Origin: Halosimplex aquaticum
GTDB lineage: Archaea > Halobacteriota > Halobacteria > Halobacteriales > Haloarculaceae
DNA length: 64,000 nt
NCBI RefSeq assembly: GCF_028747785.1
Contig: NZ_CP118158.1
Location: 62,001-126,000 of the forward strand
Reading direction: 5' to 3'
Made by a program: the position numbers and the translations under genes. This document shows, in pieces, positions 63,631 to 64,000 of this stretch. A model generated the notes under the pieces. It did no database searches. It had not been told where the DNA came from and was given only the letters and a program-made list of their open reading frames with translations. The stretch's first letter is position 1, and every line of letters starts with the position of its first letter.

Positions 63631-64000
63631 CTGTGCGGCGCTGCCGTGGTCTGGTCGCTTTCCCGAGGCCGTACGCAAAATGTGCGCCCGGAACACTAAC
63701 GACCGACATCATCCCTGGCGGCGTGCCGGGTCAGCCGGGAAACCCTCGTGCCGGGCGGGTGGCGCGATAGCGCCACCAGATGCCGAGACGGCGCAAGCCG
63801 TCGAGGCGGGAGGCGCCGTCAGGCGCCTCCGGTTGACGAGGCGGCGGTAGCCGCCGAGTCGGGTCACCCGTCAGGGCGACCGAATGCCGAGACGGCGTCA
63901 GCCGCTCGGCGAATTGGCGCTTGCGGCGCCACTCGTGTGTCGCGTGCCCGGGTTCGCCGCGCTGTCATCGCTCCCATCCGGGTACGCTCGGGCGGGGACT
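63631..64000. other. 370-bp non-coding region holding a hairpin array
   Basis: After the PstS-like stop, no gene is supported on either strand; minus-strand frames are open but Arg/Pro-rich, as expected from GC-rich palindromes. Bases 63725-63931 hold the hairpin array. The last 70 bases show no clear feature and continue past the window. Confidence 0.65.
63725..63931. repeat. Array of seven to eight consecutive hairpins, most with GNNA loops
   Basis: In order: CCGG/CCGG (63726-63738); GGTGGCGC-GATA-GCGCCACC (63758-63777); GACGGC-GCAA-GCCGTC (63787-63802); 9-bp arms GGAGGCGCC and GGCGCCTCC around GTCA (63809-63830); GGCGGC-GGTA-GCCGCC (63840-63855); GGTCACCC-GTCA-GGGCGACC with one A/C mismatch (63862-63881); a 10-bp stem with one bulged A around GTCA (63886-63910); TGGCGC-TTGCG-GCGCCA (63915-63931). 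The third and fifth are flanked on both sides by GA and a further 3-bp pairing. ATGCCGAGACGGCG occurs at 63780 and again at 63884. Confidence 0.85.

Follow-up and report, generated by a model that had tools for sequence, protein, structure and literature searches.

A tandem hairpin array in Halosimplex aquaticum as the variable linker of a predicted two-hairpin H/ACA guide RNA

The tandem hairpins near the right end of the analysed DNA (a stretch of 64,000 nucleotides of Halosimplex aquaticum, referred to here as the window) do not form an independent element. They make up the linker, variable in length, within a larger H/ACA guide RNA that had been predicted before. The tract very probably joins the two stem-loops, HP1 and HP2, of the haloarchaeal two-hairpin guide RNA, encoded on the minus strand behind a TATA/WW promoter. 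The analysis demonstrates covariation in the stems, the position of the promoter, the ANA boxes, the bases of the kink-turns, complementarity to the targets and the periodicity of the repeated units. The RNA is a known one, on the strand opposite to that of the preliminary description, and its modular linker is undescribed in the sections of the literature on this RNA that were consulted. The whole feature reaches beyond the array on both sides and overshoots the window end by 11 nt. Its parts are as follows.

63678-64000 within the window, with the 5' end at about 64011 outside it, minus strand: H/ACA guide RNA gene of about 334 nt, both ends estimated from the conserved blocks, the ANA boxes and where the promoter lies
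63678-63758, minus strand: HP2 stem-loop, from an alignment of 50 sequences
63751-63757 with 63685-63691, minus strand: HP2 lower stem
63733-63738 with 63703-63708, minus strand: HP2 upper stem
63731-63732 with 63709-63710, minus strand: HP2 sheared G.A pairs
about 63741-63747 and 63695-63700, minus strand: HP2 guide arms
63681-63683, minus strand: HP2 ACA box (TGT on the plus strand)
63759-63937, minus strand: variable linker with seven hairpins
63758-63807, minus strand: two-hairpin unit adjoining HP2 (B hairpin 63782-63807, then A hairpin 63758-63777)
63782-63807, minus strand: B hairpin of the unit adjoining HP2, GCC UC GACGGC UUGC GCCGUC UC GGC
63810-63860, minus strand: second two-hairpin unit (B hairpin 63835-63860, A hairpin 63810-63831); the best repeat period between this unit and the first is 53 nt
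63862-63881, minus strand: A-type hairpin GGUCGCCC UGAC GGGUGACC, with one G.U pair on the RNA strand that is an A.C mismatch on the plus strand
63886-63910, minus strand: hairpin GCCGAG-CGGC UGAC GCCG-U-CUCGGC, from the sequence
63915-63931, minus strand: HP1-proximal hairpin UGGCGC CGCAA GCGCCA, common to all seven same-genus linkers compared
63938-64000 in the window, complete to about 64012, minus strand: HP1 stem-loop, from an alignment of 50 sequences
63938-63940, 63942-63948, and 63950-63954 with 63997-63999, minus strand: HP1 ACA box, 3' strand of the lower stem, and guide arms, respectively

Every inverted repeat on which the claim of a tandem hairpin array had been based could be found. 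These are GGTGGCGC/GCGCCACC at 63758-63777, GGAGGCGCC/GGCGCCTCC at 63810-63831 and GGTCACCC/GGGCGACC at 63862-63881, in addition to the B units at 63782-63807 and 63835-63860 and the repeats at 63886-63910 and 63915-63931. The 14-mer described as being repeated 104 bp apart is ATGCCGAGACGGCG, which indeed occurs twice at that distance. The 261-nt region folds far beyond shuffled sequence (z = -6.6 for the plus and -5.3 for the minus strand), as none of 200 dinucleotide shuffles was as stable. The inverted repeat at 63725, taken as the first member of the array, is instead part of the conserved HP2 stem-loop. The GNNA loops and tandem GA flanks are present in the plus-strand letters, but since the RNA lies on the minus strand, their complements, UNNC loops and UC/UC internal loops, are what the RNA would contain.

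HP1 and HP2 each consist of covarying lower and upper stems around an internal pocket. For HP2, 96.9% of the cells in the alignment of 50 sequences are paired, with changes on both sides in 11 of 16 pairs; for HP1 these values are 94% and 10 of 17 pairs, and in neither case was the covariation score matched in any of 500 shuffles. An ANA box is located 3' of the lower stem in both stem-loops, reading ACA in 44 and ATA in 5 of the 50 HP2 sequences (ANA in 49), and ACA in 45 and ATA in 5 of the 50 HP1 sequences (ANA in all). Above the upper stem, both contain a kink-turn or kink-loop with tandem sheared G.A pairs (GA in 47/50 and AG in 50/50 for HP2; 47/50 and 46/50 for HP1). The earlier suggestion of a structured non-coding RNA is borne out.

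Several other candidates were rejected. An 84-residue reading frame spans the tract, yet the length of the tract varies freely and the covariation is of the RNA type. A cis-regulatory leader of a downstream gene was also discarded, as the neighbours on the 3' side of the RNA differ by lineage and the conserved promoter belongs to the RNA itself. The genes for SRP RNA and RNase P RNA were each located elsewhere in the genome, and no tRNA or tmRNA was detected by ARAGORN across the 19-kb locus. Neither an H/ACA nor another relevant family matched the locus in Rfam 15, using curated as well as E-value thresholds, so this RNA has no Rfam model that could be used for it.

A comparison of 120 loci revealed two A/T-rich elements beyond the 5' end of the RNA, a box at +24 to +27 and a pair of bases at +7/+8, spaced like a haloarchaeal TATA box and -10 element. 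This TATA/WW promoter is sited just past the right end of the window, and a minus-strand transcript would start at the conserved TGCGTGCC. No promoter-like signal was seen upstream of the plus-strand copy. In the core helices of HP1 and HP2, about 100 G.U pairs were counted on the RNA strand versus about 10 A.C pairs, mismatches in the plus-strand reading turning into G.U pairs here. The promoter position, the G.U and A.C counts, the kink-turns and the ANA boxes all indicate that the RNA is encoded by the minus strand. The structure as originally drawn, with GNNA loops and tandem G.A pairs in a plus-strand RNA, has in its favour that such loops and GA/GA internal loops are well-known motifs of RNA and that the plus fold is slightly more stable than the minus fold, but it is very improbable, since these four features and the known family all point to the minus strand. 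The first fold, a plus-strand multibranch RNA, was rejected after the promoter and the A.C/G.U pattern had emerged.

The guide RNA is present as a single copy in nearly all haloarchaea sampled. The 261-nt query matched 51 of 59 relatives, most strongly at query bases 1-60 and about 216-261, with a variable array between. Covariance models of HP2 and HP1 matched 289 and 291, respectively, of 292 genomes of the class, nearly always in one copy, so that at least 289 of these genomes contain the guide RNA. In 122 loci both stem-loops were found in order, HP1 lying 5' of HP2 with a spacer between them. A pattern scan of GTDB contigs gave at least 118 stretches and, among the matches listed, all titles but one are haloarchaeal. 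The exception is a contig titled Halobacteroidaceae bacterium, named after a bacterial family; it bears the haloarchaeal guide RNA and is probably misbinned. Weaker HP2 matches in other classes of the same phylum are as expected for an old guide RNA.

Some individual loci stand out. Haloquadratum walsbyi J07HQW1 has two copies of the locus, and in another genome a 3-kb guide RNA locus occurs twice, inverted and 99.6% identical (G221:C1:1714774 and 3469974). In locus L152 of genome G207, HP2 is interrupted by CTGTCTCTTATACACATCT, a transposon mosaic end that serves in making sequencing libraries; the assembly is therefore probably faulty at this point. In six loci (L009, L016, L028, L070, L090 and L104), a pair of DUF433 and DUF5615 genes that looks like a toxin-antitoxin module lies near the 3' end of the RNA.

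Other observations concern integration. A contig from a viral collection (IMG/VR contig IMGVR_UViG_3300027007_000012, positions 1-1901) has its first bases within the linker and HP2. About 670 nt beyond the 3' end of the RNA, a gene for a phage-type integrase (PF00589) begins. The contig start and the nearby integrase suggest that the 3' end of the guide RNA may serve as an integration site. One of the two locus copies of H. walsbyi J07HQW1 has a frame-broken relative of this integrase on the 3' side of the RNA. In genome G312 (C1:616103-618531), a stretch of about 42 nt, corresponding to the 3' half of HP2, recurs 2347 bp downstream, resembling a pair of att sites; the reading frame seen between the repeats is amidohydrolase-like, and no integrase was seen there. 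A literature search gave nothing that ties a haloarchaeal integrase attachment site to an H/ACA RNA.

In both stem-loops, the pocket arms match rRNA segments that flank a U on either side. In the organism's own 23S rRNA, the HP2 arms can pair around U1954 and U1956, with 7 and 6 bp in one arm and 4 bp in the other, and the HP1 arms around U2619, with 7 + 3 bp. These positions correspond to the published 1956, 1958 and 2621 at a constant offset of 2. HP1 is accordingly predicted to guide formation of 23S Psi2621 (E. coli 2586), and HP2 that of Psi1956 and Psi1958 (E. coli 1915/1917). In a simple pairing search of 23S rRNA, one site scored above the known one for each guide, and the target assignment thus rests on agreement with the published sites.

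We propose that minus-strand transcription from the TATA/WW promoter to the right of the window would yield an HP1-linker-HP2 RNA. L7Ae would be expected to associate with the kink-turn of each stem-loop and Cbf5/Nop10/Gar1 with the ANA box, and the internal pockets would pair with 23S rRNA, HP1 at U2621 and HP2 at U1956 and U1958 (Haloarcula marismortui numbers). Protein binding and modification activity in this organism are putative.

The linker is highly variable. Among the 122 loci in which both of its ends could be located (112 distinct linkers), its length ranges from 3 to 262 nt. The distinct linkers contain 0 to 10 hairpins each, a number that correlates with length (r = 0.96). Within the genus of the window alone, linkers range from 25 nt with one hairpin up to 262 nt with ten. 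Linkers of at least 40 nt (n = 84) have a mean folding z of -4.0 when read as the RNA, compared to -3.8 for the opposite strand. The best internal repeat periods are 51-53, 100-104 and 152 nt, in several genera. The repeated unit comprises a B hairpin, a short link (3-4 nt) and an A hairpin of 7-9 bp; the B hairpin has 3 or 4 outer pairs, a 2x2 loop that is usually UC/UC, 5 or 6 inner pairs and, in many cases, a UNNC loop. Searching the linkers for such an arrangement identified 52 units in 36 of the 112 linkers, compared to 0-4 units per shuffled set, and in 29 linkers a unit ends within 6 nt of HP2. This spacer range of 3-262 nt, the 0-10 hairpins, and the two-hairpin unit repeating at 51-53 nt or multiples thereof constitute the new findings.

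For the role of the array, the most likely reading is that of a simple spacer that folds on itself and tolerates changes in length, albeit at a roughly even balance against the explanations as a module or at the DNA level. As a chain of autonomous hairpins, the linker would change in length by gain or loss of the unit of about 52 nt, and by folding on itself it would keep the guide stem-loops from mispairing, leaving the guide modules separate and well folded. Its length would be nearly free, as each RNP acts alone.

The linker may, less probably, be a modular RNA part, in which the unit of about 52 nt, retained beside HP2 and present in up to several copies, positions the two modification RNPs or binds its own factor. 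The unit might, for example, act as a protein binding site or rigid scaffold beyond mere spacing. The recurrence of the unit in 36 linkers, in 29 of which it adjoins HP2, and the period near 52 nt in several genera are consistent with this, as are B stems that vary on both sides yet stay paired, although full pairing of the compared stems follows by construction, since the units were picked for pairing. However, a recognisable unit is absent from 76 of 112 linkers and some linkers measure only 3-10 nt, implying that the unit is dispensable; we therefore consider such a function rather unlikely.

The near-perfect stems, together with units that were duplicated recently and are still almost identical (95% over 60 nt in locus L004, 98% over 50 nt in L018), could also indicate that the array is upheld at the DNA level, by replication slippage and palindrome correction, with little selection on the RNA. 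The strict set of non-redundant linker hairpins contains 37 G.U versus 9 A.C pairs on the RNA strand, which favours selection on RNA in the linker and makes the DNA-level explanation unlikely, though one to be reckoned with. Other strand tests are mixed and speak for the DNA-level explanation: a lenient count gave 81 G.U versus 40 A.C pairs, a weaker strand signal than in the stem-loops, and a rigid two-hairpin search allowing both gave 20 versus 40, a ratio that hinges on the pairs allowed. As these counts contradict each other depending on the allowed pairs, the rigid test is not relied on.

A mobile palindromic element family had also been suggested, and perfect palindromes in tandem copies would suit a dispersed repeat that had landed in a guide RNA gene. 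A BLAST search with the 261-nt query, however, gave a single locus in the organism's own genome, and many copies at unrelated loci were not observed. When 57 genomes of the family were scanned with a unit pattern of 32 bases, allowing up to 2 mismatches, 24 matches were obtained, nearly all at the guide RNA locus; only three are clearly off-site, two of them weak 2-mismatch matches. We consequently regard this origin as most doubtful. In its favour, one lone similar unit (L171 and L182; G026:C1:1996574) is found in another genome, where it lies in frame as an Ala-rich insertion within a lipA-like gene; it does not closely match the linker of the guide RNA in the same genome.

Grosjean et al. 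(2008; PMC2584109) predicted HP1 (Psi2621) and HP2 (Psi1956 and Psi1958) in Haloferax volcanii and other halobacteria, with a long spacer between them. Folds and targets of Hvo1 and Hvo2 appear in a 2015 paper (PMC4652768), which regards both as validated by experiment and refers to Blaby 2011 for this. Based on these accounts, the guide RNA is already known, and the H. volcanii RNA agrees with the present one in having two H/ACA stem-loops in one locus, the same three 23S targets, a long spacer and a haloarchaea-wide distribution. The available sections of the 2008 paper name the spacer without describing its make-up, whereas here its length range, hairpin array and two-hairpin unit are presented. 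Other close known systems are the H/ACA sRNAs Pf7/Pab40 of Pyrococcus and Afu4 of Archaeoglobus. The 2008 paper relates HP2 to stem III of Pf7 as its homolog and HP1 apparently to stem II; in the Thermococcales sRNAs, by contrast, the hairpins are adjacent, Pf7 having three stem-loops, and a long spacer is absent.

An odd array of palindromes hence resolves to a housekeeping RNA that is already known and is encoded opposite to the strand first read. The RNA is presumably the one called sR-h45 in later work, a name for which our literature search gave no match. As Rfam does not detect this RNA, the alignments and covariance models obtained here provide a means of finding it. The distance between the two guide modules on one RNA appears to be nearly free, while the filler is still folded, and the spacer requirement of a two-module H/ACA RNA becomes a directly testable question.
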